Origin: Stenomitos rutilans HA7619-LM2
GTDB lineage: Bacteria; Cyanobacteriota; Cyanobacteriia; Leptolyngbyales; Leptolyngbyaceae
Direction of reading: 5' to 3'
Length of the DNA stretch: 48,063 nucleotides
NCBI GenBank assembly: GCA_019358945.1
Contig: JAHHIE010000051.1
Coordinates: forward strand, 1 to 48,063
Shown: positions 1-45,332 of the stretch, in pieces
How the letters are laid out: each line of letters starts with the position of its first letter
Numbering within the stretch: the stretch's first letter is position 1
The notes under the pieces: model-generated
What the model was told of the DNA's origin: nothing
Databases searched by the model: none
What the model saw: the letters and a program-made list of their open reading frames with translations, nothing else
Position numbers and translations under genes: made by a program

Positions 1-125
1 TACGCGCAGGGAAACAGCAATAAGCCCGACCAGCCAATAAACACAAAGCGATCACGCTTCAGCCAGTCGTCAAGAACGTCAAACGCTCCCCGACTCGCTG
101 GCGCACGCCCGACAGCTATGGTCAT
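1..125 (-). CDS. psbD: Photosystem II D2 protein, N-terminal fragment (runs off the left edge)
   Basis: The reverse strand from the ATG at 125 reads [20 protein letters not shown] and continues [22 protein letters not shown] to the edge, the hallmark start of the D2 reaction-centre protein of photosystem II in the thylakoid membrane. About 41 of roughly 352 residues are visible. An AGAGGA lies about 11 bases before the start and could be the ribosome binding site. Residue 14 is Ala (codon GCG) where the D2 sequences I remember have Trp in the RGWFDVLDD motif. Divergent arrangement with ycf4 is common in cyanobacteria. I cannot tell whether this is the standard D2 or one of the alternative copies; psbC would be expected downstream, off the left edge. 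Confidence 0.95.
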
Positions 126-9724: not shown

Positions 9725-9813
9725 TTCCTGATGACCTCGACGTAACCAGAAGAAAGGAGTGGTAGATGCACCCTGATCAAATCCCTGGCTTCATGTCGGG
9801 GATTTTTTTGTTT
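9725..9813 (+). ncRNA. Candidate small RNA, copy 1 of a tandem pair
   Basis: An approximately 88-base element beginning TTCCTGATGACCTCGACG and ending in a hairpin with AAATCCC/GGGATTT arms and a run of seven T, like an intrinsic terminator on the plus strand. It repeats at 9869-9955 with very few changes outside the terminator loop. No rightward gene follows, so it is not an obvious leader. Transcription is inferred, not shown. Confidence 0.55.
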
Positions 9814-9868: not shown

Positions 9869-9955
9869 TTCCTGATGACCTCGGCATAACCAGAAGAAAG
9901 GAGTGGTAGATGCACCCTGATCAATCCCTGGCTTCCCGCTGGGGATTTTTTATTA
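9869..9955 (+). ncRNA. Candidate small RNA, copy 2 of a tandem pair
   Basis: Nearly identical to copy 1 over the 5' part (CTGATGACCTCG, AACCAGAAGAAAGGAGTGG, TAGATGCACCCTGATCAA). One A is missing before the hairpin, which here is AATCCC/GGGATT with a different loop, followed by six T. Loop divergence with retained arms and T-run is what a conserved terminator would show. I do not recognise the RNA family. Confidence 0.55.
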
Positions 9956-19635: not shown

Positions 19636-19808
19636 GGGCAAACCTCACGGGTTGAGCGATTTGGCGATCGACGTTGATCAATACTTTACCTGCTGTCGGT
19701 GTGAGGTGTGGGATGAGGGATGGGGGATGAGGGGCGATCGGGAATAGGAAGCACCCTGAAATTTGATCGTTCTCCTTCAAGCGATCGTCTGACATCAGGG
19801 CTTTAAAG

Positions 19809-20034
19809 CCCCCAGAATTGGGGGTTGGGGGCAAAGGCGTAAGTCCTGTCCATCACTTATATGCCAATGTCCGAAGCGATTCAGCCTCCTAATCCCCTAA
19901 CTTTGGGGGACTTTGAACTGATCAGAGTACTCTAGAGACACGATCGCCCTGACTCGACTGATAACGTCCGAAGTTACTCAGCCCCCTAATCCCCCAGAAT
20001 TGGGGGATTAGGGGGCTGATCAGGGCACTCTAGA
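19809..20034. repeat. Cluster of CCCCCAGAATTGGGGG palindromes and a ~98-bp duplicated unit
   Basis: Two CCCCC-AGAATT-GGGGG hairpins lie at 19809-19824 and 19991-20006. The segment from GTCCGAAGCGATTCAGCC (about 19869) to CTCTAGAG recurs from about 19967 (GTCCGAAGTTACTCAGCC) to CTCTAGAA, a 98-bp tandem duplication with divergence. The same core palindrome occurs reversed at 34845-34862. The 427-base gap holds no gene. Confidence 0.75.
19978..20019. repeat. Perfect 18-bp-stem palindrome
   Basis: Arms TCAGCCCCCTAATCCCCC and GGGGGATTAGGGGGCTGA pair perfectly around the loop AGAATT. This is the longest perfect inverted repeat I found in the window. It is 43 bases before the DUF559 gene and could act as a terminator-like barrier or be a miniature repetitive element. 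Confidence 0.9.
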
Positions 20035-21388: not shown

Positions 21389-22015
21389 CTACACATCCAC
21401 AGGCAGCAACGAATAGTAAATGATGGCGAGAAAGCGAATGGGTAAGGTAATCAGCTTTTCGGGACCGTGAGGAATGTCGCCGCGAAAGGTGAGGGAATCG
21501 CCAGGTTCTAGCAGATAGGTGGATTGCCCGTGACGGTACTCGATCGCGCCTTCCAGCATATAAATAAACTCTGTACCGGGATGTTCAAACGTGGGAAACA
21601 CCTCGGAGGCATCATCCATTGTGATCAAGAACGGCTCAAAGAGTTTTGTGGGTCCCTGGTCATAGGCTAATAGGTGATAAGTATGACCGCGTTTGGTGCC
21701 TCGGCGCACCACTTCCATCCCTTCGCCCTGTTTGACCAGTTGAGCACTTCCCGCAGGGATGTTGTAGTTGCGAAACAGCGTTGCCAAAGACACACCGAGA
21801 GCACTGGCAAGTTTTGCCAATGTTTCCAGACTCGTAGCCGTTTGTGCGTTCTCAATTTTGGATAACATCCCGCGCGAAATGCCGATTTGTTCGGCAACCT
21901 CGGCGATCGTCAACCCATGCTTTTGCCGCAGTTCACGAATGGTATTGCCAAGATAGCGCTCTAGAGCATGTTCAGCGACGTTTCGTTCTAGATTGCTGGT
22001 TGTAGCCTCTACCAT
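21389..22015 (-). CDS. XRE-family transcriptional regulator with cupin domain
   Basis: 208 residues. The helix-turn-helix spans about residues 22-80 (LGNTIRELRQKHGLTIAEVA, QIGISRGMLSKIENAQ). The cupin domain covers about 105-205, with FEHPGTEFIYMLEGAIEYR, YLLEPGDSLTFRGDIPHGPE and the usual metal or ligand-binding strands. Such regulators often sense a small metabolite of the operon they face. It is divergent from purU and the methylamine cluster with a 130-base gap, so it is the best candidate regulator of that cluster. Confidence 0.9.
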   Translation of the reverse strand: MVEATTSNLERNVAEHALERYLGNTIRELRQKHGLTIAEVAEQIGISRGMLSKIENAQTATSLETLAKLASALGVSLATLFRNYNIPAGSAQLVKQGEGMEVVRRGTKRGHTYHLLAYDQGPTKLFEPFLITMDDASEVFPTFEHPGTEFIYMLEGAIEYRHGQSTYLLEPGDSLTFRGDIPHGPEKLITLPIRFLAIIYYSLLPVDV

Positions 22016-22075: not shown

Positions 22076-22107
22076 AGTTGACATATATGAATCAAAGACT
22101 GCATGAT
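22076..22107 (+). promoter_or_regulatory. Candidate promoter/operator before purU
   Basis: TTGACA at 22078-22083 is a consensus -35 box; CATGAT at 22102-22107, 18 bases on, is a fair -10. The -35 is embedded in TTGACATATATGAATCAA (22078-22095), an imperfect dyad around CATATATG that could bind the divergently encoded XRE-cupin protein. No clear NtcA site (GTA-N8-TAC) was seen in the gap. Confidence 0.45.
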
Positions 22108-22145: not shown

Positions 22146-23006
22146 ATGCCCTCTGTACGACGCTACACCTTAACCCTCTCGTGCCCTGATCGCGTGGGCA
22201 TTGTAGCAGCCGTAAGCACGTTTGTTGCCAGTCATCAGGGGTGGATTGTGGAAGCGCAGCATCACGCTGATCGCGTGGCAGAGCGGTTCTTCATGCGGCA
22301 AGAAATTCTCGCTGAGTCACTTCCCTTTGGCATTGAAGCGTTTCGAGCACAGTTTGCGCCGATCGCCGAGTCCTTTCAAATGGAATGGAATGTCACCGAC
22401 TCCGCACAAAAGAAGCGGGTGGTGATTTTAGTCTCTAAGCTAGAGCATTGCCTGTATGACCTGCTGGCACGGTGGCAAAGTGGCGAACTGGATGTGGAAA
22501 TTCCCTGCGTGATTTCCAATCATGATGGGTTTCGCAAGTTCGTAGAGTGGCACGAGATTCCCTTCTATCATGTGCCTGTTACGCCCGATACAAAAGCCGA
22601 TGCCTTTGATAAAGTGATGCATTTGTTTGACCGCGTACAGGGAGATGTGATGGTGTTGGCACGCTACATGCAGGTGCTCTCACCGAAGATGTGCGATCGC
22701 TACACGGGCCGCATTATTAACATCCATCATTCGTTTCTGCCGTCGTTTGTAGGTGCTAAACCCTACCATCAGGCGTATGAACGCGGCGTGAAATTGACGG
22801 GTGCAACCTGTCACTATGTCACAGCAGACCTGGATGCAGGCCCCATCATTGAGCAGGATGTGATTCGCATTGACCATTCTGATTCGGTAGAAGATCTGGT
22901 GCGTTATGGCAAAGATATTGAGAAAGCGGTGCTGGCAAGGGGCTTGCGCTATCACGTGGAAGACCGGGTGCTGGTGCATGGTAACAAAACCGTCGTGTTT
23001 CGGTAG
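22146..23006 (+). CDS. purU: Formyltetrahydrofolate deformylase PurU
   Basis: 286 residues: an N-terminal ACT domain (RYTLTLSCPDRVGIVAAVST, HHADRVAERFFMR) and a formyltransferase-like catalytic domain with CVISNHDGFRKFVEWHEIPF, INIHHSFLPSFVGAKPYHQA and TCHYVTADLDAGPIIEQDV. It hydrolyses 10-formyl-THF to formate and THF. Ten bases separate it from mgdA, so it leads the cluster. In an N-methylglutamate pathway the C1 unit enters as methylene-THF; PurU would release it as formate and regenerate THF. Confidence 0.95.
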   Translation: MPSVRRYTLTLSCPDRVGIVAAVSTFVASHQGWIVEAQHHADRVAERFFMRQEILAESLPFGIEAFRAQFAPIAESFQMEWNVTDSAQKKRVVILVSKLEHCLYDLLARWQSGELDVEIPCVISNHDGFRKFVEWHEIPFYHVPVTPDTKADAFDKVMHLFDRVQGDVMVLARYMQVLSPKMCDRYTGRIINIHHSFLPSFVGAKPYHQAYERGVKLTGATCHYVTADLDAGPIIEQDVIRIDHSDSVEDLVRYGKDIEKAVLARGLRYHVEDRVLVHGNKTVVFR

Positions 23007-23015
23007 GAGATTGCC

Positions 23016-24257
23016 ATGCCATTGCGCTTACTGAAATTTGGTTTCTCCCAAAAGCATCCCGAACCCCGGATGTTTCGGCAGCCCGATCGCCTCAAGTCGA
23101 GTTACGACGCGGTAATTATTGGTGGGGGTGGTCATGGGCTGGCTGCTGCCTACTACCTGGCACGCGATCACGGTATACACAATGTCGCGGTGCTGGAGAA
23201 AGGCTACCTCGGCGGCGGCAATACGGGACGCAACACCACAATCATTCGTTCTAACTACCTTACGCCTGAAGGCGTGAAGTTCTACGATGAATCGGTGCGG
23301 CTATGGCAGGACTTGTCACAAGAGTTTGACCTGAATGTGTTCTATTCCACACGCGGGCATTTTACGCTAGCACACACGGATGCGTCGGTGCGAACCATGC
23401 GCTGGCGATCGGAGGTCAACAAGCATTTCGGCATTGCTAGTGAACTGGTGGATGCTGATGCGGTGCAAGATGCCTGCCCACATGTGGATATAACCTGTGG
23501 TGGACACGCTCCTATTCTTGGTGCTCTCTACCATGCACCGGGAAGCATTGCCCGCCATGATGCCGTGGCGTGGGGTTACGGTCGTGGAGCCGATCAGCGC
23601 GGCGTAGAAATCCATCAACAAACGGAAGTGTTGGGCATTACGACTAAAGCAGGTCGAGTGACAGGTGTAGAAACGTCACGGGGAAAGATTTCCACATCAC
23701 GAGTTCTCTGTGCGGTCGCTGGATCAACGCCACGATTGCTGGCTATGGTGGGATTGCGATCACCCCTCCACATCCATCCTTTACAAGCAATGGTGAGCGA
23801 ACCCATGAAAGCATGGCTTGATCCCATCATTGTTTCGGGTAGTTTGCATGTGTATGTCAGCCAAACGGCACGGGGAGAACTGGTGATGGGTGCGTCGCTT
23901 GACCCCTACGAGCTACATTCCACCCGATCGACCCTCGATTTTGTAGAAGGCTTGGCAGCAAATATGCTGGAACTTTTTCCCTTCCTGTCGCATGTCAAAG
24001 TGGTGAGGCAATGGGCAGGCATGGCAGACATGACTCCAGATTTCGCACCCATTATGGGAAAAACCGCGATCGAGGGTTTTTATTTGGATTCCGGTTGGGG
24101 CACCTGGGGCTTTAAAGCAACGCCTGTAGCAGGTAAAACGATGGCATATACAGTGGCGAACGATCGCACCCATGAGCTGATTCAAGACTTTTCTCTCGAT
24201 CGTTTTGCCAACTATGCTTTGGTGGGTGAAAAGGGTGCGGCTTCGGTGGGACATTAG
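23016..24257 (+). CDS. mgdA: N-methylglutamate dehydrogenase subunit A (sarcosine oxidase beta-like)
   Basis: 413 residues of the DAO/SoxB flavoprotein family. The FAD motif is YDAVIIGGGGHGLAAAYYLA (G36-G41), followed by EKGYLGGGNTGRNTTIIRSN, the SoxB-type flavin site. The C-terminal part has QWAGMADMTPDFAPIMG and LDSGWGTWGFKATP. Alone it would be called sarcosine oxidase beta. I call it MgdA because gmaS and mgsABC follow in the same cluster. It is the flavin subunit oxidising the N-methyl group. GGAGA precedes the ATG. Confidence 0.87.
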   Translation: MPLRLLKFGFSQKHPEPRMFRQPDRLKSSYDAVIIGGGGHGLAAAYYLARDHGIHNVAVLEKGYLGGGNTGRNTTIIRSNYLTPEGVKFYDESVRLWQDLSQEFDLNVFYSTRGHFTLAHTDASVRTMRWRSEVNKHFGIASELVDADAVQDACPHVDITCGGHAPILGALYHAPGSIARHDAVAWGYGRGADQRGVEIHQQTEVLGITTKAGRVTGVETSRGKISTSRVLCAVAGSTPRLLAMVGLRSPLHIHPLQAMVSEPMKAWLDPIIVSGSLHVYVSQTARGELVMGASLDPYELHSTRSTLDFVEGLAANMLELFPFLSHVKVVRQWAGMADMTPDFAPIMGKTAIEGFYLDSGWGTWGFKATPVAGKTMAYTVANDRTHELIQDFSLDRFANYALVGEKGAASVGH

Positions 24258-24290
24258 GGAGTGGGGAGTGGGGAATGGGGAGGGGGGAAT
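24258..24290. repeat. Intergenic GTGGGGA heptamer repeat
   Basis: Tandem GAGTGGGGAGTGGGGAATG-type heptamers immediately after the mgdA stop, the same family as in the VOC gene. The 115-base gap otherwise holds only the ribosome binding site of the next gene. Confidence 0.7.
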
Positions 24291-24372
24291 TTTGAGTAGT
24301 GCTCTGCGCCGACAAGCTAGAGAGTTTTAAGTTGAAAAGTGGGGAGCAGGGAATCGAAATTGAGGAGAGTTT

Positions 24373-24681
24373 ATGGTGCTTGAGGTGGCGATGTTAATGG
24401 TCAAAAATGAATTAGAGCAAGCATTTGAAACCTCGTTCAGGCAGGCTTCGCTCTTAATTGCCTCTATGCCTGGGTATGAATCCCATGAACTCCATCAATG
24501 CCTGGAAGTGCCCAGAAAGTATTTGCTGTTGGTGAAATGGAATACGCTAGAAGACCATACGATCGGCTTTCGCCAATCATCTATCTATCAAACATGGAAA
24601 CAGCTTTTGCACCATTTCTATGATCCGTTCCCAGTGGTTGAACATTTTATAGAAGTCGTTAGCTGCAAGCGGCAAGAGTGA
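24373..24681 (+). CDS. Antibiotic biosynthesis monooxygenase (ABM) domain protein
   Basis: 102 residues with a single ferredoxin-like ABM domain: VLEVAMLMVKNELEQAFETS, FRQASLLIASMPGYESHEL, YLLLVKWNTLEDHTIGFRQS and YDPFPVVEHFIEV. GGAGAG precedes the ATG. Members are small, often dimeric, oxidases or stress proteins; no substrate can be given. It sits between mgdA and mgdB, where other NMG clusters known to me have no such gene. Confidence 0.85.
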   Translation: MVLEVAMLMVKNELEQAFETSFRQASLLIASMPGYESHELHQCLEVPRKYLLLVKWNTLEDHTIGFRQSSIYQTWKQLLHHFYDPFPVVEHFIEVVSCKRQE

Positions 24682-24706
24682 ATCTTCTAATGAACGTTCG
24701 ACGCTT

Positions 24707-25036
24707 ATGAAGAAATTACTCTTTGTGTGCGGTAAAAATCGTTTACGTAGCCCGACTGCTGAAACGATCTTCTCGCGCTATGAGGGATTGGAAGTCGAAT
24801 CGGCGGGGATCGACCGGGACGCAGATACGCCGCTATCTAGCGAGACAATTCAATGGGCAGATGTCATCTTTGTGATGGAAAATGTACACCGGAGTAAGCT
24901 CTCAAAAAAGTTTCAGCCTTATCTTAATGGTAAACGGATTGTTTGTTTGGATATTCATGACGAGTATGAGTATATGGAATCGGCTCTGGTAGAACTCCTT
25001 GAGAGAAAAGTATTGCCGCTGTTAGGCACCTTTTAG
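24707..25036 (+). CDS. Short low-molecular-weight protein-tyrosine-phosphatase-like protein
   Basis: 109 residues. The phosphate-binding loop CGKNRLRS (Cys8, Arg14) fits CX5R and is followed by PTAE; the acid segment near the C-terminus is DIHDEYEYM, where the short family usually has DIPDxY. Known LMW-PTPs are about 150 residues, so this belongs to the compact subgroup. It may dephosphorylate proteins or small molecules. It is inserted between mgdA and mgdB on the same strand. Confidence 0.85.
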   Translation: MKKLLFVCGKNRLRSPTAETIFSRYEGLEVESAGIDRDADTPLSSETIQWADVIFVMENVHRSKLSKKFQPYLNGKRIVCLDIHDEYEYMESALVELLERKVLPLLGTF

Positions 25037-25089
25037 CACTGAAATAGATGGACTGCGATGGGTGGGACTCTGATGGATGGGAAGAAACG

Positions 25090-25350
25090 ATGAAATTAAT
25101 GGTGTGTCCAATGAATGGTGCTCGACCGATTTCGGAATTTGTGTATGGTGGCGAAGTGCGTCCTATGCCCGATCCACAGACCGTAGATGATGTAGCGTGG
25201 GCAGATTATGTGTTTAACCGCAACGGTGCCGCAGGCGTGAAGCAGGAATGGTGGTGCCATACGCCGAGTAATACCTGGTTTCTGGTCGATCGCAATACCG
25301 CAACCGATGAAATTCTTCGTACCTATTTGTATGGTGAGGAGGCCGCATGA
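25090..25350 (+). CDS. mgdB: N-methylglutamate dehydrogenase subunit B (sarcosine oxidase delta-like)
   Basis: 86 residues from the ATG at 25090, chosen because GGAAG precedes it at proper distance; an ATG at 25048 would add 14. Text is clearly SoxD-like: ISEFVYGGEVRPMPDP, WADYVFNRNGAAG, WWCHTPSNTWFLVDRNTATDE. Sarcosine oxidase delta binds zinc through CPxCG plus a downstream His and Cys; here the motifs are CPMNG and WCHTPS, so at most half the ligands remain. Stop overlaps the mgdC start by four bases (ATGA). Confidence 0.87.
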   Translation: MKLMVCPMNGARPISEFVYGGEVRPMPDPQTVDDVAWADYVFNRNGAAGVKQEWWCHTPSNTWFLVDRNTATDEILRTYLYGEEAA

Positions 25351-28300
25351 GCCAACGTCTACCGCCTGTACCAGGGGAGTGGATCGATCGCACCCGACCG
25401 ATCGACTTCACCTTTGAAGGAATGCATTTTCGGGGGTATGCAGGCGATACCATCAGCAGTGCGTTATGGGCATCAGGACAACGAGTGTTGGGACGCAGCT
25501 TCAAATACCATCGTCCACGTGGGCTACTGAGCTTTGCGAATCACGACGTCAACACGCTGATGCAATCTGGTCAGGTGCTGAATGTTCGGGCAGATGTCAC
25601 ACCGTTAGAAGCAGGGATGACGCTCACAGCCATTAATACGGTGGGCGGCGTAATGGGCGATCGTGCCAGCGTTCTCAATTTCTTTTCACCCTTCCTGCCC
25701 GTTGGTTTTTACTACAAAGCCTTTCTAGATAAAAAACTCTTTCCCATATGGGAACGCCTGATTCGCCGCATGACGGGCTTGGGTGAAGGTAATCCAGCCA
25801 CTCCCCACATCCGCACGCCCAAGCGCTACGACTTTTGTGACGTGTTGGTGATTGGTGCTGGGGTCTCTGGTTTGTCAGCCGCACTGTCAGCGGCAAACGC
25901 AGGCGCAGATGTAGTCATTATCGATGAGAACGCGAAGGCAGGTGGTTCCGGCGGCTATCAACTGGGTGGCAATTCATCTCACGCTGAGAAAACGGCTGCA
26001 TTGCTGGATGCGATCGCCTCCCATCCTAACATTCGGTTGTATATAGGCACTCAAGCAGCAGGCTATTACGCCGATCACTGGATTCCCTTAGTCGATCGCG
26101 ATCGACTTTCCAAGATGCGTGCCAAGTCGGTCATTGTTGCCAGCGGTGCCTACGATCAACCTGCCGTTTTCCACAACAACGATCTCCCAGGCGTGATGTT
26201 GGCATCTGCTGCTCAACGGCTCATCTATCGCTATGCGGTCAAGCCCATGCAGCGGGCAGTTGTCTTGGCTGCAAACAGCGATGGATACCGTGCAGCATTA
26301 GATTTGGCAGCACATGGAATTGTCGTGATGGCGATCGTCGATCTACGTCCTACTCCCACATTAACGGATCTCATGCAGGCGGCGCGATCGCAAAACATTC
26401 CCATCTATACAAATCATTGCATTTACGAAGCAAAGCAAAATCCAGCAGGTGATGGCATTGCCAGCGCTGTAGTTTGTCCGTTTGATGGTAACGAACCACA
26501 AGTAGGACAAAAACGGTCGATCGCCTGTGATGGCATTGTCATGAGTGTAGGTTGGGCACCTGCTGCCAATTTGCTGTATCAAGTCGGTGCCAAGATGCGC
26601 TTTAATAAACACTTACAGCAGTTTGTCCCAGACGTTTTGCCCGCAGGTGTTTTTGCCTGTGGTCAAGTGAATGGTATCTTCGAGTTTGAGCAGAAAATAT
26701 TAGATAGCGATAGGGCTGGTAATCTAGCAGCAGCGTTTCTAGGCTTTCCCAATACCGCTCCTGACTCTTCTTCTCTTTCGAGGTGTAACAACCTTCAGCT
26801 TACCCAAATCGAGCCGATTTACGAGGGACTGGAACTGGAACAATTAGCACCTTTCGGGGGGCGTGGGGGAGTTAGGACCCCACAAAGCGGGGGGGCGGGG
26901 GGAAGTCCCCCGGACAAGATTAGAAACGAAGCCCAAATCTCCATACACGACAATTCGTGTGAAAGTGAGAGTGTTTCTCATCCCTGGCCGATCGTCCCTC
27001 ATCCCCATCATAAAAACTTCGTAGATTTCGATGAAGACCTGCAACTTAAAGACTTCTACAACGCTGCCCAGGAAGGCTTTGATAATATAGAACTCCTCAA
27101 ACGCTACACCACCTTTGGGATGGGACCCAGCCAGGGAAAACATTCCAACATGAACGCTTTGCGAATTTTGGCACAGATTACAGGCAAAACTCCTGGTGAA
27201 GTCGGTACCACTACCGCACGACCGTTTTTCCATCCCGTGCTTCTCTCCCATCTGGCAGGACGTGGGTTTACACCAGAGCGCCAAACGCCGTTACACAGTC
27301 GCCATGCTGCATTAAACGCCAAATTCATGCTCACAGGCAACTGGCGACGACCCGAGTATTACACTCAGGAGGGAAAGAGCCGTGACAAGTGTATTTCTGA
27401 GGAAGCGATCGCCGTTCGTACCCGCATCGGTATTATTGATGTCGGCACATTAGGCAAATTGGAAATACGCGGCCCTGATGCGGCAGAGTTTCTAGAGCGA
27501 GTCTACACCGGACGCTACGACAGCCTGAAAGTGGGAATGTCGCGCTATGCCCTGATGCTCGATGAAACAGGAGTCATCATTGATGATGGTGTAATCGCAC
27601 GTTTTGGAACCGAGCATTTCTACTTCACTACCACGACCTCTGGTGCAACAAACATCTACCGTGAGCTGTCGCGCCTCAACACCATGTGGCACTTGGACTG
27701 TGGCATTGTGAATACAACAGGTGCACGATCGGCCATCAATCTGGCTGGCCCCCATGCTCGTGAAGTGCTTGCCAAACTCACCAATCTGGATTTGTCCCAT
27801 AACGCTTTCCCCTACCTTGGCGTACGTCAGGCAACTGTTGCTGGCATTCCTGCTTTATTGATGCGCGTTGGGTTTGTCGGTGAGTGGGGGTACGAAATTC
27901 ATGTCGCCGCAGACTCGGCGATCGCACTTTGGGATGCTTTACTAAAAGCAGGTGCAGCATACGGCATTAAGCCCTTTGGTGTCGAAGCGCAACGGCTACT
28001 GCGACTGGAGAAAGGACACCTAATTGTCGGGCAGGATACCGACGGTTTGACCACTCCGCGAGAAGCTGGTCTGGGATGGGCTGTCAAGCTAGACAAGCCG
28101 TTTTTCATTGGTCAACGCAGTCTACAAAGTATGACAAATCCGATCAAACATACGTTGGTGGGCTTTGTGCTAGAGCCATTTCAAGGATTGCCACCGCAGG
28201 AATGCCATCTCATTATCGATCGCAATGAAATAGCGGGTCGCATTACCAGCATTGCCTTCAGTCCTTTCTTAAAACAATTTATTGGATTAGCATTTGTGAA

Positions 28301-28451
28301 ACCAGAGTTGGCGACAGTGGGCGATCGCCTTTCCATTCGCCGCGCCGATGGTTCCTTCGTCACCGCAACCATTCATCCCACTCCCTTCTACGATCCCGAA
28401 AACCTCCGCCAGAAAGAAGCTATCCAAAAACAGGAGGAAGTCACGGTATGA
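25347..28451 (+). CDS. mgdC: N-methylglutamate dehydrogenase subunit C (sarcosine oxidase alpha-like)
   Basis: 1034 residues. Order: an N-terminal ferredoxin-like domain (about 15-110; FKYHRPRGLLSFANHDVNTL), an NAD/FAD Rossmann domain (VIGAGVSGLSAALSAANAG, about 168-186), a second nucleotide domain (about 250-460), then a C-terminal aminomethyltransferase/THF domain (about 640-1020; YALMLDETGVIIDDGVIARF, WGYEIHVAADSAIALWDAL, LRLEKGHLIVGQDTDG). It transfers the oxidised methyl carbon to tetrahydrofolate. Residues about 500-550 are a Gly/Pro-rich insertion encoded by repeat DNA between the two halves. It overlaps mgdD by four bases. Confidence 0.88.
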   Translation: MSQRLPPVPGEWIDRTRPIDFTFEGMHFRGYAGDTISSALWASGQRVLGRSFKYHRPRGLLSFANHDVNTLMQSGQVLNVRADVTPLEAGMTLTAINTVGGVMGDRASVLNFFSPFLPVGFYYKAFLDKKLFPIWERLIRRMTGLGEGNPATPHIRTPKRYDFCDVLVIGAGVSGLSAALSAANAGADVVIIDENAKAGGSGGYQLGGNSSHAEKTAALLDAIASHPNIRLYIGTQAAGYYADHWIPLVDRDRLSKMRAKSVIVASGAYDQPAVFHNNDLPGVMLASAAQRLIYRYAVKPMQRAVVLAANSDGYRAALDLAAHGIVVMAIVDLRPTPTLTDLMQAARSQNIPIYTNHCIYEAKQNPAGDGIASAVVCPFDGNEPQVGQKRSIACDGIVMSVGWAPAANLLYQVGAKMRFNKHLQQFVPDVLPAGVFACGQVNGIFEFEQKILDSDRAGNLAAAFLGFPNTAPDSSSLSRCNNLQLTQIEPIYEGLELEQLAPFGGRGGVRTPQSGGAGGSPPDKIRNEAQISIHDNSCESESVSHPWPIVPHPHHKNFVDFDEDLQLKDFYNAAQEGFDNIELLKRYTTFGMGPSQGKHSNMNALRILAQITGKTPGEVGTTTARPFFHPVLLSHLAGRGFTPERQTPLHSRHAALNAKFMLTGNWRRPEYYTQEGKSRDKCISEEAIAVRTRIGIIDVGTLGKLEIRGPDAAEFLERVYTGRYDSLKVGMSRYALMLDETGVIIDDGVIARFGTEHFYFTTTTSGATNIYRELSRLNTMWHLDCGIVNTTGARSAINLAGPHAREVLAKLTNLDLSHNAFPYLGVRQATVAGIPALLMRVGFVGEWGYEIHVAADSAIALWDALLKAGAAYGIKPFGVEAQRLLRLEKGHLIVGQDTDGLTTPREAGLGWAVKLDKPFFIGQRSLQSMTNPIKHTLVGFVLEPFQGLPPQECHLIIDRNEIAGRITSIAFSPFLKQFIGLAFVKPELATVGDRLSIRRADGSFVTATIHPTPFYDPENLRQKEAIQKQEEVTV
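26850..26905. repeat. G-rich repeat insertion inside mgdC
   Basis: A G/C-rich segment with GGGGGGCGTGGGGGAG and a palindromic GGGGGAAGTCCCCC lies in frame and encodes a Gly-rich linker (FGGRGGVRTPQSGGAGGSPP). It resembles the C/G-rich intergenic palindromes of this genome and sits at the junction between the oxidoreductase half and the THF half. Confidence 0.75.
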
Positions 28452-29152
28452 TTCGCCTGAGTCCAATGCATGACCGACTCCAATGCATCAATGGAACGTT
28501 GCAAGATTTGAATGGAATGCCAACTCTTCTGTCCGTTCCTGATGAGGTTAGGATAGCCACTCATTTAGGTATCGCTGATGTTTCTTGCCTGACTCGTTTT
28601 GGTGTTAAAGGAGCGGATGCAGCCGCTTGGCTATCGAGTCAAGGCATCACAACGCCTGATCGCCCAAATACCTGGAATCCCCTTCCTGATGGTGGCATCA
28701 TTGCCCGTCTCGGCTTAACAGAATTTTTGATTGAAGACGATTTGCAAAGCCATTTTGCAGTTAATCTAGCCAAACTCTGCCAGCAGCCACCCGCCAAAGT
28801 TTATCCCGTCTTACGTCAGGATGCTGCGATCGTCCTTTGTGGTTCAGCAGTCAACGAACTCCTACTGCAAACCTGTAGCGTTAACTTTCGCGTTCTATCA
28901 TTGCTGGAACATCCCGTCATGCTCACATCAATGGTAGGAGTCGCTGTTACCATCATTCCTGGCGATCGCAATGGCAACCCGTTCTACCGTATCTGGTGTG
29001 ATGGTACGTTTGGAACATATGTATGGCAAACCTTAGAAGCGATCGTCCAAGAGTTGGGCGGCGGCGTGATTGGTTTAGCAAAACGGATGAGGGATGAGGG
29101 ATGTAGCTTGCTTCCCGTTGGCGAAGCCTGCCGAAGGCATAGGGTAGGCTAA
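28448..29152 (+). CDS. mgdD: N-methylglutamate dehydrogenase subunit D (sarcosine oxidase gamma-like)
   Basis: 234 residues; SoxG/aminomethyltransferase-like beta-rich protein: VRIATHLGIADVSCLTRFGV, GADAAAWLSSQG, LGLTEFLIED and VYPVLRQDAAIVLCG. It is the smallest THF-fold subunit of the dehydrogenase. The last 20-odd residues (after GLAKRM) are encoded by a dispersed palindromic repeat with GGCGAAGCCTGCCGAAGGC, so the native end has probably been replaced or extended. Four-base overlap with mgdC shows coupling. Confidence 0.82.
   Translation: MIRLSPMHDRLQCINGTLQDLNGMPTLLSVPDEVRIATHLGIADVSCLTRFGVKGADAAAWLSSQGITTPDRPNTWNPLPDGGIIARLGLTEFLIEDDLQSHFAVNLAKLCQQPPAKVYPVLRQDAAIVLCGSAVNELLLQTCSVNFRVLSLLEHPVMLTSMVGVAVTIIPGDRNGNPFYRIWCDGTFGTYVWQTLEAIVQELGGGVIGLAKRMRDEGCSLLPVGEACRRHRVG
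29084..29150. repeat. Dispersed repeat forming the mgdD C-terminus
   Basis: ATGAGGGATGAGGGATG heptamers are followed by GCTTCCCGTTGGCGAAGCC and TGCCGAAGGCA, the hairpin-forming CCCGTTGGCGAAGCC type of cyanobacterial repeat. It supplies the last codons of mgdD including the stop. Confidence 0.65.
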
Positions 29153-29333
29153 AAGTTTTGAATTTTGAGCTTGGAATTGGGAAAAACTAAACGATAAAGG
29201 ATGAAGGATAAAGGCTAAAAGTTCTGAGTTAATTCAAGTGCCCTCGAATCTCTTGCTTCCCCTGCTCTCCTTGCTTCCCCTCCCCTCCCCTCTGCTTCCT
29301 GCCCACTGACTACTAACTTCAAGGAACCTATTC
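29153..29333. other. Gap before gmaS with AAAGG repeats
   Basis: 181 bases of degenerate AAGGATAAAGGCTAAAAG and CTTGCTTCCCCT-type repeats, with an AAGGAA ribosome binding site shortly before the gmaS ATG. An internal promoter is possible but I see no clear -35/-10. Confidence 0.45.
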
Positions 29334-30662
29334 ATGTCTCCAGAAACGGCAAAAAAATTCCTAGCAGATAACCACGTTAAGTTCGTCCTAGCGCAGTTTG
29401 TGGATATGCACGGTACCGCCAAAACAAAGGCCGTGCCTGCATCCCATTTTGATGACATTCTCGACCCAGGTGCAGGGTTTGCAGGGTTTGCGGTTTGGGG
29501 CTTGGCGCAGCAACCGAATAGCCACGATTTCATGGCGATCGGCGATCCATCAACCTTAACGCTTGTCCCCTGGATGCCAGGATTTGCGCGGATGGTTTGC
29601 GTCGGTCATGTAGATGGACAGCCTTATCCTTATGATGCACGATTTGTGCTGATGCAGCAGCTAGAACGGCTGAAGCAAAAGGGTTGGACGTTTTACACCG
29701 GATTGGAACCTGAATTTGCCCTTCTGCAAAAAGATGCTCAGGGACACATTTTTCCGGCTGATACCACCGATACGCTAGAAAAACCCTGTTATGACTACAA
29801 AGGACTTTCTCGCAGTCGTGCCTTCATTGAAAAACTGGTGGAAAGTTTACAAATCGCGGGTTTTGACGTGTATCAAATTGATCACGAAGATGCCAATGGT
29901 CAATTTGAAATCAATTATACGTATACGGATTGCCTCACGTCCGCCGATCGCTATATCTTTTTCAAAATGGCTGCGTCTGAGATCGCCAAAGAAATGGGAT
30001 TGATTGCGACCTTCATGCCCAAGCCCTTTTCTAATCGGACGGGCACGGGAATGCACATGCACATGTCCATGTCTGACGGCAATGCCAATCTCTTTGCGGA
30101 TGACAGCGATCCTCGCCAGTTAGGACTGTCCAAATTGGGTTATCACTTCCTTGGTGGTTTACTGGCTCATGCACCAGCGCTCACTGCCATCTGTGCGCCT
30201 TCCATCAACTCTTATAAGCGATTGGTGGTAGGACGTGCACTCAGTGGTGCAACTTGGGCACCTGCTTACATTACCTACGGCGACAACAACCGCTCCAGCA
30301 TGGTTCGCATTCCAGGGGGACGGCTCGAATTTCGTCTAGCTGATGGTTCCTGTAATCCTTATTTGGCAGCGGCTGCCGCGATCGCCGCTGGGCTTGATGG
30401 TATCGAAAAAGAACTCGATCCAGGCGATCCGTACAACATCAATCTCTATGATCTTTCCGAAGCCGACCTTAAGGACAAAGGCATCAAGACCCTACCGCAG
30501 AGCTTAAAGGAAGCCGTTGACGCCCTCGAAGCAGATACCGTTATTACCGATGCCCTTGGCCCACTTGCTGCCGAATTTATCAGCCTTAAGCGTATGGAAT
30601 GGGTCGAATACATGCGCCACGTTTCCGCATGGGAAGTGCAGCGGTATTTAGAATTTTTCTAA
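29334..30662 (+). CDS. gmaS: Gamma-glutamylmethylamide synthetase GmaS (glutamine-synthetase-like)
   Basis: 442 residues, the length of GmaS and shorter than most GlnA. Glutamine-synthetase motifs: [76 protein letters not shown] and [13 protein letters not shown]. The N-terminus [17 protein letters not shown] is typical of the type III-like GmaS group. GmaS ligates methylamine to glutamate with ATP. True GlnA is less likely because the neighbours are mgs and mgd genes. Confidence 0.9.
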
Positions 30663-30831
30663 GGGAGGAGGCAGAAGATTGTGGGTGGGAAGTGGTCAAA
30701 GCTAAATTTAAAGCTCAGATTTTTTGCCCTTTATCCTTCATCTTTGTCTTCTCCTGCAACTCAAAACTTTTAGCCTTTAGCCTTTAGCCTTTCTTCCAAC
30801 TCAGAACTCTTAACTCAAACCTATTCCCTCT

Positions 30832-31740
30832 ATGTGCGGCATCGTCGGCTTACTGGTCAAAAATCCATCACTACGATCGTCTCTCGGTGAACTCATGGTA
30901 CCCATGCTCATCGGTATGAGTCAACGCGGCCCCGATTCTGCTGGACTCGCCGTTTTTACTGACGCTCTACCAGACAACCAGCGCAAATATAGCCTCTACT
31001 CTGGTAGTATCCATACAAATGGTAACTTCAACTGGTCAGAACTGGCACAGGCATTTCAAACCCATTTCAACGCGACGCCCGAACTTCAAATTCACGGAAA
31101 TCAAGCCGTGCTTACGGCTGAGCTTACTCCCAACACTGTTAAGCAATGGCTACAAAAGCACTATCCATACATCCATCTTCTTTCAACTGGGCGAGCGATA
31201 GATTTGTACAAAGATGCGGGAAGTCCGACTAGCATTGCCGATCGCTACCACTTCCAAGATCTACAAGGCTCTCATCTCGTCGGGCATACCCGCATGGCAA
31301 CGGAATCGGCGGTTACGCCTGCCCACGCTCACCCTTTTACCGCAGGCGAAGACTTCTGCCTTGTCCATAACGGTTCCCTTTCCAATCCCTATGAAATTCG
31401 TCGCAAGCTTGAACATCACGGCATCCACTTTGAAACCGACAATGACACCGAAGCCGCCTGTCGCTTTCTCGAATGGCGAATGCAGGAAGGTGATGATTTG
31501 AAAGCAGCCATTCAAAAAGGCTTTGAAGCACTGGATGGTTTCTATACTTTTCTCATGGGCACTGTTGATCAGTTGGCGTTGGTACGTGATGCTTTTGCCT
31601 GTAAGCCTGCTGTAGTCGCCGAAACCGATGATTATGTGGCGATCGCGTCCGAATTTCGATCGCTCGCCCATCTTCCCCACATTAACCACGCCCACATCTA
31701 CGAACCCGCACCAGAGGAAATGTACGTATGGACGGTGTAA
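30832..31740 (+). CDS. mgsA: N-methylglutamate synthase subunit A (glutamine-amidotransferase class II-like)
   Basis: 302 residues starting MCGIVGLL: Cys2, exposed after Met removal, is the Ntn nucleophile. Other motifs: MSQRGPDSAGLAVF, LVGHTRMATESAVTPAHAHP and CLVHNGSLSNPYEIR. This is the GlxB/PurF-type amidotransferase domain of glutamate synthase as a separate subunit. It should take the methylamine group from gamma-glutamylmethylamide. Its last 13 bases overlap mgsB, indicating coupling. The gap before it (30663-30831) has AAAGG/CCTTTAGCC repeats. Confidence 0.88.
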   Translation: MCGIVGLLVKNPSLRSSLGELMVPMLIGMSQRGPDSAGLAVFTDALPDNQRKYSLYSGSIHTNGNFNWSELAQAFQTHFNATPELQIHGNQAVLTAELTPNTVKQWLQKHYPYIHLLSTGRAIDLYKDAGSPTSIADRYHFQDLQGSHLVGHTRMATESAVTPAHAHPFTAGEDFCLVHNGSLSNPYEIRRKLEHHGIHFETDNDTEAACRFLEWRMQEGDDLKAAIQKGFEALDGFYTFLMGTVDQLALVRDAFACKPAVVAETDDYVAIASEFRSLAHLPHINHAHIYEPAPEEMYVWTV

Positions 31741-32408
31741 CCTTCGACCTCGCTCAAACACCCCTGCGTGAAGTCAATCGCTTTCTCCATCAACCATCCA
31801 GCAACCAATCCATCCGTATTCTAAATCCCAACGGTGCTCACAACATTGCAGTAGGTTTAGATGCGCCGATGGAAGTCGAAATTGTGGGTCATGCAGGCTA
31901 TTACGCCGCTGGTATGAACAAGCTCGCAAACGTCACCATTCTGGGTAACGTCGGTCCCGGTGTTGCCGAAAATATGATGTCAGGACGAATCCACGTCAAA
32001 GGCTTTGCCTCCGTTTCCGCCGGAGCGTCGGCTCAGGGTGGATTACTCGTTATCGATGGTGATGCCAGCCTGCGTTGTGGCATTTCGCTTAAAGGGGCAG
32101 ATATTGTGGTAGGCGGCAGTGTCGGCAGTTTCTCCGCCTTCATGGCACAGGCAGGACGCATCGTGATTTGCGGCAATGCAGGCGATGCCCTCGGCGATTC
32201 TCTCTATGAAGCCGTCATCTACGTGCGTGGTGCCATCAAATCGCTCGGTGCCGATGCTCAGATGGAACCCATGACCGATGCCGATTACGAAGTGGTGGGT
32301 GAGCTACTTACCAAAGCAGGTTTTTCTCACGATCCGAAGGAATTCAAACGCCTCGCCTCAGCCAAGCAGCTTTATCACTGGAATGCAGATGCTAATCAGG
32401 AGTATTAA
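31728..32408 (+). CDS. mgsB: N-methylglutamate synthase subunit B (GXGXG/glutamate synthase alpha C-like)
   Basis: 226 residues forming the right-handed beta-helix of the glutamate synthase GXGXG domain: ILGNVGPGVAENMMSGRIHV, ASAQGGLLVIDGDASLRCGI, DIVVGGSVGSFSAFMAQAG and VICGNAGDALGDSLYEA. It is a structural subunit of the synthase (also called GlxC). Starts inside the 3' end of mgsA. Confidence 0.88.
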   Translation: MDGVTFDLAQTPLREVNRFLHQPSSNQSIRILNPNGAHNIAVGLDAPMEVEIVGHAGYYAAGMNKLANVTILGNVGPGVAENMMSGRIHVKGFASVSAGASAQGGLLVIDGDASLRCGISLKGADIVVGGSVGSFSAFMAQAGRIVICGNAGDALGDSLYEAVIYVRGAIKSLGADAQMEPMTDADYEVVGELLTKAGFSHDPKEFKRLASAKQLYHWNADANQEY

Positions 32409-32434
32409 AAAGATTCGCAGTTGTTAAAAAACTT

Positions 32435-33355
32435 ATGGGCTATTACAACAGTTTCTCCGTGTTGGCATTTACTGGCTTCGCTTTAGTTTTGTCATCATAC
32501 GGTTCAGCGTATTGTCCAGAACTGTTACAAGTTCAGCAAGTAGTCAGTCAAAGTTCTACGCAATTAAAAACAACTGATTTGAATACGTCTGCCACCTCTG
32601 TTGAAGAAGAGGCAATATACACACGTCCGAAAAGTGAAAAACCTGCAAAATTTGAGAATCAACAGAAAGCCTTAAAACATGGCTGTAAACTTCAACATCT
32701 TAAGGGTAAAATTCAGGAAAGCTGTGTTATTCAGACATATACTATCTCGCATGACTTCATTCTTGATATTTACGATAGGAGTAATCGAGGTGAATTTATT
32801 AGGACTGATAGTCTTATACTACGTTCACATTATATTGGAGGGGAAATTCAGTACAAAGATCTGTTAGGAGATGGTAAGAAATCTATTTTGGCTCCTCTCA
32901 AAACGGGGGGTACGGGAATTGAACTGACTATTGTAGTGATAATCGTTTTTAATAAGCGTCAGTTCCAGCTTGTGGCAGCGGAGCCATTAACATATGGCAA
33001 TTCCGCTGGTGGTTGGGATCTAATAAAGTTTACAGCCAACTATAAAATTAGAAATGAAGGAACTCAAAATGTTTCTTTAGTTTTTACGCCTGAATATATG
33101 TATATCTCACAGCACCCTAGAAAGCCTAAAAGAATCACAAAAGTTTTCTGGGATGATGAACTTAAGTGGAATCAAGAAAAGTTCTCTTTTTATGATCGTC
33201 AGCTAGAAGAATATAAAGCTGAACGTTCAATCTTTTTTATGCAAAAGAATATTTCTCGCATAAGGGCAACTATTTCTGAACAAAATCTAACTGATTTTGA
33301 TAGGGACAGTTGGATAAAAACGAAGGTTGGAGAAGTTACGGCAGAGCAAAATTAA
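32435..33355 (+). CDS. Hypothetical exported protein, 306 aa, AT-rich gene inside the operon
   Basis: 306 residues with a hydrophobic N-terminus (residues 5-26) ending in SSYGSAYC, probably a signal peptide. The rest is soluble and Lys/Glu-rich, with GGEIQYKDLLGDGKKSILAP, TIVVIIVFNKRQFQLVAAEP and FTPEYMYISQHPRKPKR. I do not recognise a family. The gene is clearly richer in A/T than its neighbours and lacks HIP1 sites. It splits mgsB from mgsC, so it looks like a later insertion that is carried along in the transcript. It could have an unrelated role. Confidence 0.78.
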   Translation: MGYYNSFSVLAFTGFALVLSSYGSAYCPELLQVQQVVSQSSTQLKTTDLNTSATSVEEEAIYTRPKSEKPAKFENQQKALKHGCKLQHLKGKIQESCVIQTYTISHDFILDIYDRSNRGEFIRTDSLILRSHYIGGEIQYKDLLGDGKKSILAPLKTGGTGIELTIVVIIVFNKRQFQLVAAEPLTYGNSAGGWDLIKFTANYKIRNEGTQNVSLVFTPEYMYISQHPRKPKRITKVFWDDELKWNQEKFSFYDRQLEEYKAERSIFFMQKNISRIRATISEQNLTDFDRDSWIKTKVGEVTAEQN

Positions 33356-33382
33356 GACATTTGGTCATCAGGAAAACCTATT

Positions 33383-34753
33383 ATGCTATTAGTGAATATG
33401 AACAACGCTCAATCCCATCAACCGCTTTCGCTCGAAGCTTCCTGGGGCTACGACAGCCGCATGATTAGCTACATTCAAAATGCAGCAGCGCATGGTCTGT
33501 ATGAAATTCGTGGGTTGGGTGCCAAACGTCGCTTACCTCACTTTGATGACCTGGTGTTTTTGGGGTCATCTCTCTCGCGGTATCCCCTGGAAGGCTATCG
33601 GGAAAAATGCACCACTAAAACCATCTTGGGCACGCGATATGCCACAAAACCTATTGAATTGGAGATTCCCATCACGATCGCAGGCATGAGTTTCGGCTCC
33701 CTCTCTGCCAATGTCAAAGAAGCACTGGGGCTTGCCGCAACTGCTGTCGGCACCTCGACGACTACAGGCGACGGTGGCATGACTCTTGAAGAACGGCTTT
33801 CCTCTAAGACCTTAATCTATCAGTGTTTACCGTCTCGTTATGGGTTTAATCCTGATGATGTGCGAAAGGCTGACGCGATCGAAATCGTCATTGGTCAGGG
33901 CGCAAAACCGGGCGGTGGTGGGATGTTACTGGGGCAAAAAATCAATCCTCGCGTAGCACAGATGCGTACTTTACCCGAAGGCGTAGATCAACGCTCTGCC
34001 TGCCGTCACCCCGACTGGACAGGCCCCGACGATCTCACCATCAAAATTCAAGAACTGCGAGAACTCACGGATTGGGAAAAACCCATCTATGTGAAAGTGG
34101 GAGCCTCGCGCACGTTCAACGATGTGAAACTTGCCGTGCATTCCGGTGCGGATGTGATTGTGGTGGATGGTATGCAGGGCGGGACAGCAGCAACCCAATC
34201 GGTCTTTATTGAACATGTGGGCATTCCCACACTCGCAGCCGTGCGTCAGGCAGTGGATGCCCTCGAAGATCTGGATATGAAAGGCAAAGTTCAATTGATC
34301 GTATCTGGTGGCATTCGCACAGGAGCCGACGTGGCGAAGGCGATCGCGATGGGTGCTGATGCTGTTTCGATCGGGCAAGGCATTCTCATTGCGTTGGGCT
34401 GCAATAGCGAAACCTACATCCAGCAAGGCGAACACCACTCGGCGGTGGAAGATTACGCGGCCATCGGCACCGCTCCCGGTTATTGCCATCACTGCCACAC
34501 TGGAAAATGTCCTGTTGGTGTCACCACCCAGGATCCCCTTTTGGAGAAGCGGTTAGAACCAGAGGTGGGTGCGCAACGAGTAAAGAACTATCTGCAAACG
34601 CTGAATATGGAACTGACCACGATCGCTCGCGCCTGCGGGAAACAAAACATCCATCATCTGGAGCGCGAAGATCTGGTGGCCCTCACTGTAGAAGCCGCTG
34701 CAATGGCACGATTGCCCCTCGCTGGTACGCCCTGGATTCCAGGTTGGCAATAA
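33383..34753 (+). CDS. mgsC: N-methylglutamate synthase subunit C (FMN glutamate synthase-like)
   Basis: 456 residues (AGGA nine bases before the ATG; an in-frame ATG at 33398 is possible). It has the glutamate synthase central/FMN domain: TIAGMSFGSLSANVKEALG, TTTGDGGMTLEERLSSKT, DVIVVDGMQGGTAATQSVFI, IVSGGIRTGADVAKAIAMG. Cysteines in YCHHCHTGKCPVG fit the iron-sulphur cluster. It forms N-methylglutamate from gamma-glutamylmethylamide and 2-oxoglutarate-derived chemistry with MgsA and MgsB. It closes the cluster. Confidence 0.9.
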   Translation: MLLVNMNNAQSHQPLSLEASWGYDSRMISYIQNAAAHGLYEIRGLGAKRRLPHFDDLVFLGSSLSRYPLEGYREKCTTKTILGTRYATKPIELEIPITIAGMSFGSLSANVKEALGLAATAVGTSTTTGDGGMTLEERLSSKTLIYQCLPSRYGFNPDDVRKADAIEIVIGQGAKPGGGGMLLGQKINPRVAQMRTLPEGVDQRSACRHPDWTGPDDLTIKIQELRELTDWEKPIYVKVGASRTFNDVKLAVHSGADVIVVDGMQGGTAATQSVFIEHVGIPTLAAVRQAVDALEDLDMKGKVQLIVSGGIRTGADVAKAIAMGADAVSIGQGILIALGCNSETYIQQGEHHSAVEDYAAIGTAPGYCHHCHTGKCPVGVTTQDPLLEKRLEPEVGAQRVKNYLQTLNMELTTIARACGKQNIHHLEREDLVALTVEAAAMARLPLAGTPWIPGWQ

Positions 34754-34949
34754 GTGGCAAGGCAGAGGGCAGGAGGCAGAAGTTACTTTTTCAACATTAG
34801 AGGATGTCTGAGAAGTGTCTGAGACGCTGCCTTCGCCCCCTCTATCCCCCAATTCTGGGGGACTTCCATCTCAGAACCTCTCAAACTTGGGGGGCAGGGG
34901 GGCAGTTCGGGCAACAATTCATGCCTTTTAAGACATCCTCTTATGCAAA
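34754..34949. repeat. Gap with CCCCCAATTCTGGGGG palindrome
   Basis: TCCCCC-AATTCT-GGGGGA at 34845-34862 is the exact reverse complement of the core palindrome at 19809 and 19991, followed by another G-rich arm (34888-34903). It may end transcription of the methylamine cluster, but it has no T-run. Confidence 0.65.
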
Positions 34950-44827: not shown

Positions 44828-44880
44828 TGTCCGTTCAGGGAGGGACGGAAGTAGGGATAAAGACCCGAAGGAACGCGCTT
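44828..44880 (+). promoter_or_regulatory. Glutamine riboswitch (glnA/Downstream-peptide type) candidate
   Basis: The leader contains CGTTC (44832-44836) pairing with GAACG (44871-44875), and between them the conserved text GACGGAAGTAGGG and ACCCGAAGGAACGCG; GGG/CCC around ATAAAGA form the inner hairpin. This matches what I recall of the glutamine-binding glnA and Downstream-peptide motifs of cyanobacteria. It ends 33 bases before the small protein gene at 44913. Confidence 0.82.
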
Positions 44881-44912: not shown

Positions 44913-45332
44913 ATGAAAACGCAATGGCAACGATATAAAGAACTAGAGTTATTGCCTGAAGGGGCAGCAGAACCACAAACAATTTACTCGCCGTTAATCG
45001 CTTATTTAGATCAACGTTGGCGATCGCTACTCAACCGTCGCGCTGCTCTACTTGACTATGAGTATCAGGTGGAATATTTAGAGCGGCGGCTGAGCTTGCC
45101 GTGCTCTCAAACCATTGAGAAACACTCGCTGTTGAGAAAGCTCTGGCACTGGTTGAACCAGCCAATTAACTTTGAGCATTCGTTCTCGCCATCAGAGCCT
45201 GAAATTCAACAAACGCTGGATCGGACCGGGCAAACCTGGTGGAAAGTTTACGATCCCCTCACTGGGCAGACGGCCTATTTGGAATCAGAAGCGGAAGTCC
45301 ACATCTGGCTTGAAGAACGCCTCTATCACTAG
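44913..45332 (+). CDS. Small protein with C-terminal TGQ-x-x-Y motif, copy B, behind glutamine riboswitch
   Basis: 139 residues. The N-terminal ~95 residues are helical (MKTQWQRYKELELLPEG, LIAYLDQRWRSLLNRRAALL, YEYQVEYLERRLSLP). The last ~40 (TWWKVYDPLTGQTAYLESEA, EVHIWLEERLYH) match copy A at 44214. A strong GGAG lies seven bases upstream, and the 5' leader carries the glutamine aptamer. Glutamine should thus set its expression, pointing to nitrogen-related control. I see no clear similarity to the glutamine synthetase inactivating factors IF7/IF17. Confidence 0.85.
   Translation: MKTQWQRYKELELLPEGAAEPQTIYSPLIAYLDQRWRSLLNRRAALLDYEYQVEYLERRLSLPCSQTIEKHSLLRKLWHWLNQPINFEHSFSPSEPEIQQTLDRTGQTWWKVYDPLTGQTAYLESEAEVHIWLEERLYH

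Follow-up and report, generated by a model that had tools for sequence, protein, structure and literature searches.

A cluster of genes with the content and order of the N-methylglutamate (NMG) pathway of methylamine utilization occupies positions 22146-34753 of the DNA analysed here, a stretch of 48,063 nucleotides (hereafter the window) from the cyanobacterium Stenomitos rutilans HA7619-LM2. The window is the entire contig C44 of a 7.28 Mb genome assembled in 119 contigs (99.9% complete, 0.18% contaminated). On a single (+) strand, the cluster carries purU, mgdA, genes for an ABM-domain and a low-molecular-weight phosphotyrosine phosphatase (LMWP)-like protein, mgdB, mgdC, mgdD, gmaS, mgsA, mgsB, open reading frame 306 (ORF306) and mgsC, with overlaps between mgdB and mgdC, mgdC and mgdD, and mgsA and mgsB (Table 1). 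The frames of all nine pathway genes are open. An earlier reading of the window made from its letters alone (the sequence-only reading) had listed purU, Sox-like, glutamine-synthetase-like and split glutamate synthase genes; all are present, on the (+) strand and with three overlaps, and the list was correct for the genes it named, leaving unmentioned the ABM, LMWP-like and ORF306 genes and a divergent XRE-cupin regulator.

Table 1 Predicted features of the NMG cluster and its upstream region, in window coordinates.
Feature	Position	Strand	Basis
XRE-family helix-turn-helix and cupin regulator (PuuR-like), divergent from the cluster	21389..22015	-	Pfam HTH_3, Cupin_2
Promoter-like site TTGACA-N18-CATGAT, pointing into the operon	22078..22107	+	Top score of the scanned region, 10/12 matches
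purU, formyltetrahydrofolate deformylase	22146..23006	+	NCBIfam PurU 372.5 bits (cut-off 286); 69% identity to the Acidithiobacillus caldus gene
mgdA, SoxB-like flavin subunit of NMG dehydrogenase	23016..24257	+	TIGR01373 481 bits (cut-off 529); tree
ABM-domain small protein, passenger gene	24373..24681	+	PF03992, E 2.5e-12
LMWP-like small protein, passenger gene	24707..25036	+	PF01451, E 2.5e-6
mgdB, SoxD-like subunit	25048..25350	+	PF04267 100.8 bits
mgdC, SoxA-like subunit with 2Fe-2S, NAD/FAD-type and folate-binding GcvT domains	25347..28451	+	PF13510, PF07992, PF17806, PF01571, PF08669; tree
mgdD, divergent SoxG-like subunit	28448..29152	+	TIGR01375 20 bits (cut-off 144); position and relatives
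gmaS, gamma-glutamylmethylamide synthetase, 442 amino acids	29334..30662	+	TIGR03105 645 bits (cut-off 470); active-site residues; tree
mgsA, class II amidotransferase subunit of NMG synthase	30832..31740	+	PF13522; N-terminal Cys2 kept
mgsB, GXGXG subunit	31728..32408	+	PF01493; 67% identity to the A. caldus subunit annotated glxC
ORF306, 306 amino acids, between mgsB and mgsC	32435..33355	+	36.7% GC
mgsC, flavin mononucleotide (FMN) glutamate-synthase-like subunit	33383..34753	+	PF01645 320 bits; 79% identity to A. caldus; tree

GmaS of the window scored 718.6 bits against the solved synthetase of Methylovorus mays (MmGMAS, PDB 9qur) and 368 bits against that of Rhodovulum (RhGmaS, PDB 7cql), to which it is about 45% identical. 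Two GlnT paralogs encoded elsewhere in the genome (contigs C42 and C71) likewise exceed the TIGR03105 cut-off, so this model alone is not decisive. When the active-site residues of RhGmaS, taken from PMC7948447, were mapped onto the window protein, the methylamine pocket (7/7), catalytic (3/3), Mg (6/6) and glutamate (6/6) residues were all kept, as were 8 of 9 ATP residues, the exception being Trp189. Ala50 and Trp308 stand at the positions of the ammonia-site Asp and Glu-flap Glu of glutamine synthetase, as they do in RhGmaS, whereas the host's own GlnA has Asp and Glu there; Tyr195 replaces Trp189 of RhGmaS, as in Methylovorus menthalis. The own GlnA and both paralogs fail this active-site test, the paralogs having Ser, Asp and Asn at Q181, N194 and H243, and window GmaS scores below the cut-off of the GlnA model TIGR00653 (371 versus 429 bits). 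A GmaS tree rooted at its midpoint placed 17 cyanobacterial rows on one side of a starred branch (97), within a larger Pseudomonadota set that includes Methylovorus and excludes the paralogs and GlnA. Window GmaS, with its active site present, does not group with ordinary GlnA. The two paralogs belong to two copies of a module (L010:6548-12505 on C42 and L011:5336-10430 on C71), each combining a GlnT-like ligase, parts of an SsuABC-like ABC transporter and a creatininase-family protein; ligases of this type form a third GlnT clade (12 rows, 100/100, starred) with altered pocket residues.

Domains, identities to annotated loci and the MgsC tree, in which 16 cyanobacterial rows fall on one side of a starred branch (98), identify mgsA, mgsB and mgsC as three separate subunit genes beside gmaS. 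Window MgsA has Cys2, as do 104 of 106 related rows; the other two rows are unaligned at that position, and a few genomes are counted twice. Scans of Pfam and NCBIfam gave no match to ORF306. In other genomes, the mgsB-mgsC gap holds different inserts or none, and among the inserts compared only those of two same-genus loci (L018 and L109) are alike; a conserved role for this insert was rejected, and ORF306 is treated as a passenger. The ABM gene has an equivalent place in genus members and in L023, and the LMWP-like gene (77% identity) in Kovacikia.

The four Mgd subunits belong to the SoxBDAG superfamily and have a subunit architecture and folate domain in common with SoxBDAG (2gag, 1vrq). 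MgdA keeps a histidine (His181) that aligns with His173 of 2gag_B, the residue that carries the FMN. Such kinship is what would be seen at a locus for sarcosine or glycine-betaine catabolism, with MgdABCD acting as a heterotetrameric sarcosine oxidase and the GlnT/GltS-like genes serving ordinary nitrogen assimilation, but we regard this explanation as very improbable. None of the four subunits reaches its curated Sox cut-off (soxB 481/529, soxD 66/117, soxA 835/1164 and soxG 20/144 bits). In MgdA and MgdC trees that we rooted on two true-Sox loci, one with soxBDAG beside glyA and a serine ammonia-lyase gene (L121) and one with rhizobial soxBDAG (L122), NMG loci formed sets without true Sox comprising 56 rows for MgdA (support 98) and 60 rows for MgdC (support 99; 7 rows shorter than 60% of window MgdC were left out). 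Within them, 17 cyanobacterial MgdA rows and 18 MgdC rows lie on one side of starred branches (98 and 99, respectively). At the positions of what are presumably the metal ligands of SoxD (Cys, Cys, His, Cys), MgdB has CNHS in the window, in 17 of 17 cyanobacterial rows and in 27 of 36 other rows, leaving two of the four changed, whereas the two true-Sox rows read C, C and H at the first three and have their last cysteine one residue later. The neighbours also differ from those of SoxBDAG, as gmaS and/or mgsABC adjoin mgd genes in cyanobacterial loci. The sequence-only reading had taken the cluster for an NMG pathway, an identification supported by the GmaS active site, by gene order and by the grouping of MgdA and MgdC with NMG loci apart from true SoxB and SoxA. 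Two variants of the mgd genes were seen: an apparent mgdC-mgdD fusion in L148, L150 and L152 (MgdC of 1208-1254 amino acids, separate mgdD not called; two changes on the tree), and an mgdA split into two overlapping frames on Kovacikia minuta plasmid pA (L120:10150-11392), either a sequencing error or a broken gene.

Among the best 80 of at least 497 confirmed relatives, 12 are cyanobacterial, with 77-94% identity; the other 68, mostly labelled proteobacteria, reach at most 72%. On the A. caldus megaplasmid mpAca1.1, the order is XRE-purU-mgdABCD-gmaS-mgsABC-folD, with mgdD present as an unannotated frame, and the gene order and divergent XRE regulator of the window recur both there and in Zoogloea, Azoarcus and Thiobacillus loci. 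The A. caldus proteins are 53-79% identical to those of the window (MgdD 43%); that locus has the extra folD at its end, whereas the window has the additional ABM, LMWP-like and ORF306 genes and an oxygenic phototroph as host. According to PMC5023235, the gmaS-mgsABC-mgdABCD enzyme set is also that of Methyloversatilis universalis FAM5, a methylotroph that, unlike the window host, has one-carbon (C1) metabolism linked to tetrahydromethanopterin, and whose mgsC and mgdD mutants cannot use methylamine. As the cyanobacterial GmaS, MgdA, MgdC and MgsC rows each fall on one side of a branch, a single acquisition is likely: the cyanobacterial loci probably descend from one transfer out of a beta- or gammaproteobacterium-like source, both direction and donor being presumed. 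NMG genes also occur in two metagenome-assembled genomes labelled Klebsiella pneumoniae (L065 and L090), which stand apart from each other in the GmaS tree and whose labels are probably wrong.

Of the 386 genomes sampled across the phylum, 2 yielded a GmaS (E up to 1e-140) and 4 an MgsC, which in one case is only 67% identical. MgsC occurs in 10 of 42 genomes of the window's family and in 6 of 7 of its genus; one of these matches, at 69%, is of another type (G421, below). In G418, the remaining member of the genus, mgdA is accompanied by PurU and the regulator, and the contig breaks off shortly afterwards. In a class sample weighted towards the window's family, MgdA was present in 31 of 388 genomes and 20 of 160 genera. 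The survey of cyanobacterial genomes proposed by the sequence-only reading thus finds the cluster in relatives, with a patchy distribution. MgsC accompanies MgdA in 26 of the 31 genomes and GmaS in 20; the five outside the 26 (G396, G418, G451, G518 and G585) have no MgsC at the threshold used. All 17 further cyanobacterial loci examined contain mgdA and mgdC. A second type of mgsABC, divergent from that of the window (37-38, 44-49 and 67% identity), was found in G421 (L116:1458-8511) and G005 (L119:5614-13684), beside a GntR-type regulator (so labelled in L119 from position only) and one flavoprotein that belongs to the N-methyltryptophan/sarcosine oxidase family but scores below its cut-offs. 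Window-type mgdABCD was not seen in these two stretches; L116 also carries a gmaS of the alpha type described below and L119 an Amt-type gene, and the arrangement perhaps represents another methylamine route.

Cluster gmaS is not universal. The 26 genomes with MgdA and MgsC comprise 19 with GmaS and 7 without it (G060, G400, G424, G437, G491, G530 and G545), and in the gmaS-less Kovacikia minuta the cluster lies on plasmid pA. All seven gmaS-less loci run directly from mgdD to mgsA, and a search of them for gmaS remnants returned none, the two matches being at chance level (E 0.11 and 0.97). Each of the seven genomes encodes, on another contig, a GlnT protein with 53-56% identity to RhGmaS in which the GmaS signature is kept, although one has Ser for Ala50. 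In a careful tree, from which G396_L163 was left out, these proteins and those of G451, G421 and G005 form a cyanobacterial clade (98/94, starred) that is sister to alphaproteobacterial GmaS (100/99, starred). This alpha-type GmaS was found in neither of two gmaS-bearing genomes of one genus (G000 and G416), the only such genomes searched at low threshold, with one further G416 match (206 bits, C133) judged by score alone; it is also present in G005 and G421, two genomes that yielded no window-type cluster.

A tree of five proteins (27 cyanobacterial and 5 proteobacterial rows) requires five changes of gmaS state by parsimony, at least two of them forced by starred branches. With a gmaS-bearing outgroup, which was itself found through GmaS, the gmaS-less state is read as loss. 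Clustering of the gmaS labels on this tree was weak compared with shuffles (40-45 of 500 as low). Duplicate or incomplete entries were left out, namely L147 (a record of L022), L156, L023 (the same as L157), L028 (the same as L148), L029 (the same as L156), L158 (mgdC and gmaS split), L144 (gmaS split, mgsC on another contig) and the partial L024 and L025. The N-terminal cysteine of MgsA is kept in all seven gmaS-less genomes, as expected if the substrate of MgsA is an amide. The presence of alpha-type GmaS in seven of seven gmaS-less genomes, set against its absence from the only two gmaS-bearing ones searched, suggests that cluster gmaS was displaced and that the gamma-glutamylmethylamide step is required. 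The fuller proposal, that the operon was gained once and gmaS then lost repeatedly, but never unless another part of the genome supplied a GmaS of separate descent and alphaproteobacterial type, is tentative, and we place it somewhat short of an even chance.

These losses, together with passenger genes inside the operon, the two-frame mgdA of Kovacikia and split mgdC or gmaS genes in L144, L156 and L158, could instead mark a horizontally acquired operon now disused and decaying. We think this quite improbable: the nine pathway frames are open in the window, active-site residues are kept across divergent genomes, the seven gmaS-less genomes carry another GmaS, and HIP1 sites are nearly as dense in the cluster as around it. 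The 12.6-kb cluster contains 10 such sites, five of them in mgdC and none in mgdA, mgdB or mgsB. This is a density of 0.79 per kb; the flanking regions have 1.04 and 0.98 per kb, and four proteobacterial loci hold 0-2 sites per 21 kb. The sequence-only argument for long residence from HIP1 sites inside the cluster genes holds as counts.

The divergent XRE-cupin regulator is 77% identical to that of the A. caldus NMG locus, adjoins the cluster in many related loci and probably controls the operon. Promoter-like sites showed no excess across the scanned region (11, compared with 14.9 in shuffles). Among 14 cyanobacterial upstream regions, 10 contain a form of the promoter-like site with N17 spacing (0.22 expected), a pattern derived from the same loci and with the window (N18) among the four misses; as it occurs in 0 of 53 non-cyanobacterial upstream regions, a promoter common to proteobacteria was rejected and the claim is confined to cyanobacteria. 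The divergent spacer contained no exact NtcA site (GTA-N8-TAC), either in the window or in 13 related loci, and one-mismatch matches were scattered, so NtcA control was rejected, as was a GAAACTT operator spotted by eye, which was inconsistent between loci. The cluster adjoins hpf-lipB in the window, L018 and L019. In G416 it shares a contig with hpf at a distance of about 26 kb, and in G419 it is on another contig. With location varying in this way within the genus, a fixed integration site was rejected and no clean empty site emerged.

Several other elements were seen in the window. Low-complexity spacers around gmaS hold 35-nucleotide inverted repeats, 89% complementary, at 29196-29230 and 30758-30792. 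The cluster is flanked by three exact CCCCCAGAATTGGGGG palindromes, two on one side at 19809 and 19991 (+) and one on the other at 34846 (-); allowing up to two mismatches, CCCCCAGAATTGGGGG occurs four times in the window (0.11 expected). Two matches to the nitrogen-stress RNA NsiR1 (9760-9810 and 9904-9953) are in a genome whose genus mates include records labelled Tildeniella and Lyngbya, lineages that we take to be non-heterocystous. A glutamine riboswitch match (44830-44879) stands just upstream of a 139-amino-acid frame (44913-45332) that is perhaps gifB. A 942-amino-acid protein with leucine-rich repeat, Roc-COR and TIR domains is encoded at 16813-19641 (-).

Going by characterised homologues of the window enzymes, the pathway would run as follows. 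Methylammonium probably enters through an Amt-family channel; the sequence-only reading had seen no methylamine transporter, a point corrected by one Amt-family gene elsewhere in the genome. A dimethylamine monooxygenase-type gene was considered as well and rejected, PF11927 having 0 matches in the host genome. GmaS would join methylammonium to glutamate, with ATP, as gamma-glutamylmethylamide, and NMG synthase (MgsABC) would convert this to NMG: MgsA would open the amide, and MgsBC would form the C-N bond on 2-oxoglutarate. The flavoenzyme MgdABCD would then return glutamate and pass the methyl group to tetrahydrofolate as the methylene form, and PurU, after a putative FolD-type step, could release surplus C1 as formate, for a net gain of glutamate nitrogen and a C1 unit. 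The host would accordingly be expected to import methylamine, induce the operon and use methylamine as a source of nitrogen and C1 units. The same genes might instead serve other primary alkylamines, or detoxify methylammonium by storing it as a gamma-glutamylalkylamide, with little net nitrogen gain. Methylovorus GMAS has a broader substrate range, making theanine from ethylamine (PMC12588301), and a detoxification role has been proposed before (PMC5023235); nevertheless, the presence of purU and of a folate-binding subunit is in keeping with a one-carbon group, all 17 further cyanobacterial loci retain mgdA and mgdC, and the methylamine pocket of GmaS is kept, and we judge this explanation unlikely.

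We consider it very likely that the window holds a complete, probably functional NMG operon of a filamentous cyanobacterium, with the steps and regulator proposed above and a single acquisition behind it. Several points tell against this conclusion. No library match is named NMG dehydrogenase, so that the Mgd assignment comes from cluster context and trees, and the similarity of MgdD to SoxG is weak, its assignment following from position and relatives. Most trees were quick searches, rooted by us or at the midpoint. An Acinetobacter plasmid locus with gmaS and mgsABC nearby (L015) falls outside the NMG sets, with the Sox-like L123 and L124; kinship and NMG context therefore do not coincide everywhere, and the sets do not take in all NMG loci. 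The MgdB mark is equivocal, with CCHC in the A. caldus NMG locus and CNHS in L123 and L124, which makes it supportive and not decisive. Passenger genes in the operon and the non-coding spacers on both sides of gmaS make a single transcript uncertain.

The NMG pathway is on record from proteobacteria, and mycobacteria have been proposed to have it too (PMC5023230). The sequence-only reading likewise placed it mainly in proteobacteria, which needs correction for the synthetase: 'Cyanophyceae' appear among the aligned GmaS sequences in the Figure 10 legend of PMC7948447, so cyanobacterial GmaS has been in print since 2020. For the whole pathway in cyanobacteria, we found no paper in literature searches that covered few subscription journals and in which most matches were judged from the title and the opening lines of the abstract. 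New here is that 7 of 26 cluster genomes lack the cluster gmaS and that all seven have the other GmaS type on another contig. Pathway topology and the role of gamma-glutamylmethylamide were called open in 2015 (PMC5023235). If the displacement proposal is true, gamma-glutamylmethylamide is an intermediate that the pathway needs, as opposed to a side product, and the gmaS-less cyanobacteria, as natural gene-swap experiments, would make this disputed point testable. Labelled methylammonium serves as an ammonium analogue in uptake assays, cyanobacteria included, and bacterial glutamine synthetase converts it to methylglutamine (PMC10794816). By the complete NMG route, a phototroph would recover the nitrogen of methylamine and a C1 unit, which would matter for such assays and would place oxygenic phototrophs among the possible methylamine sinks.

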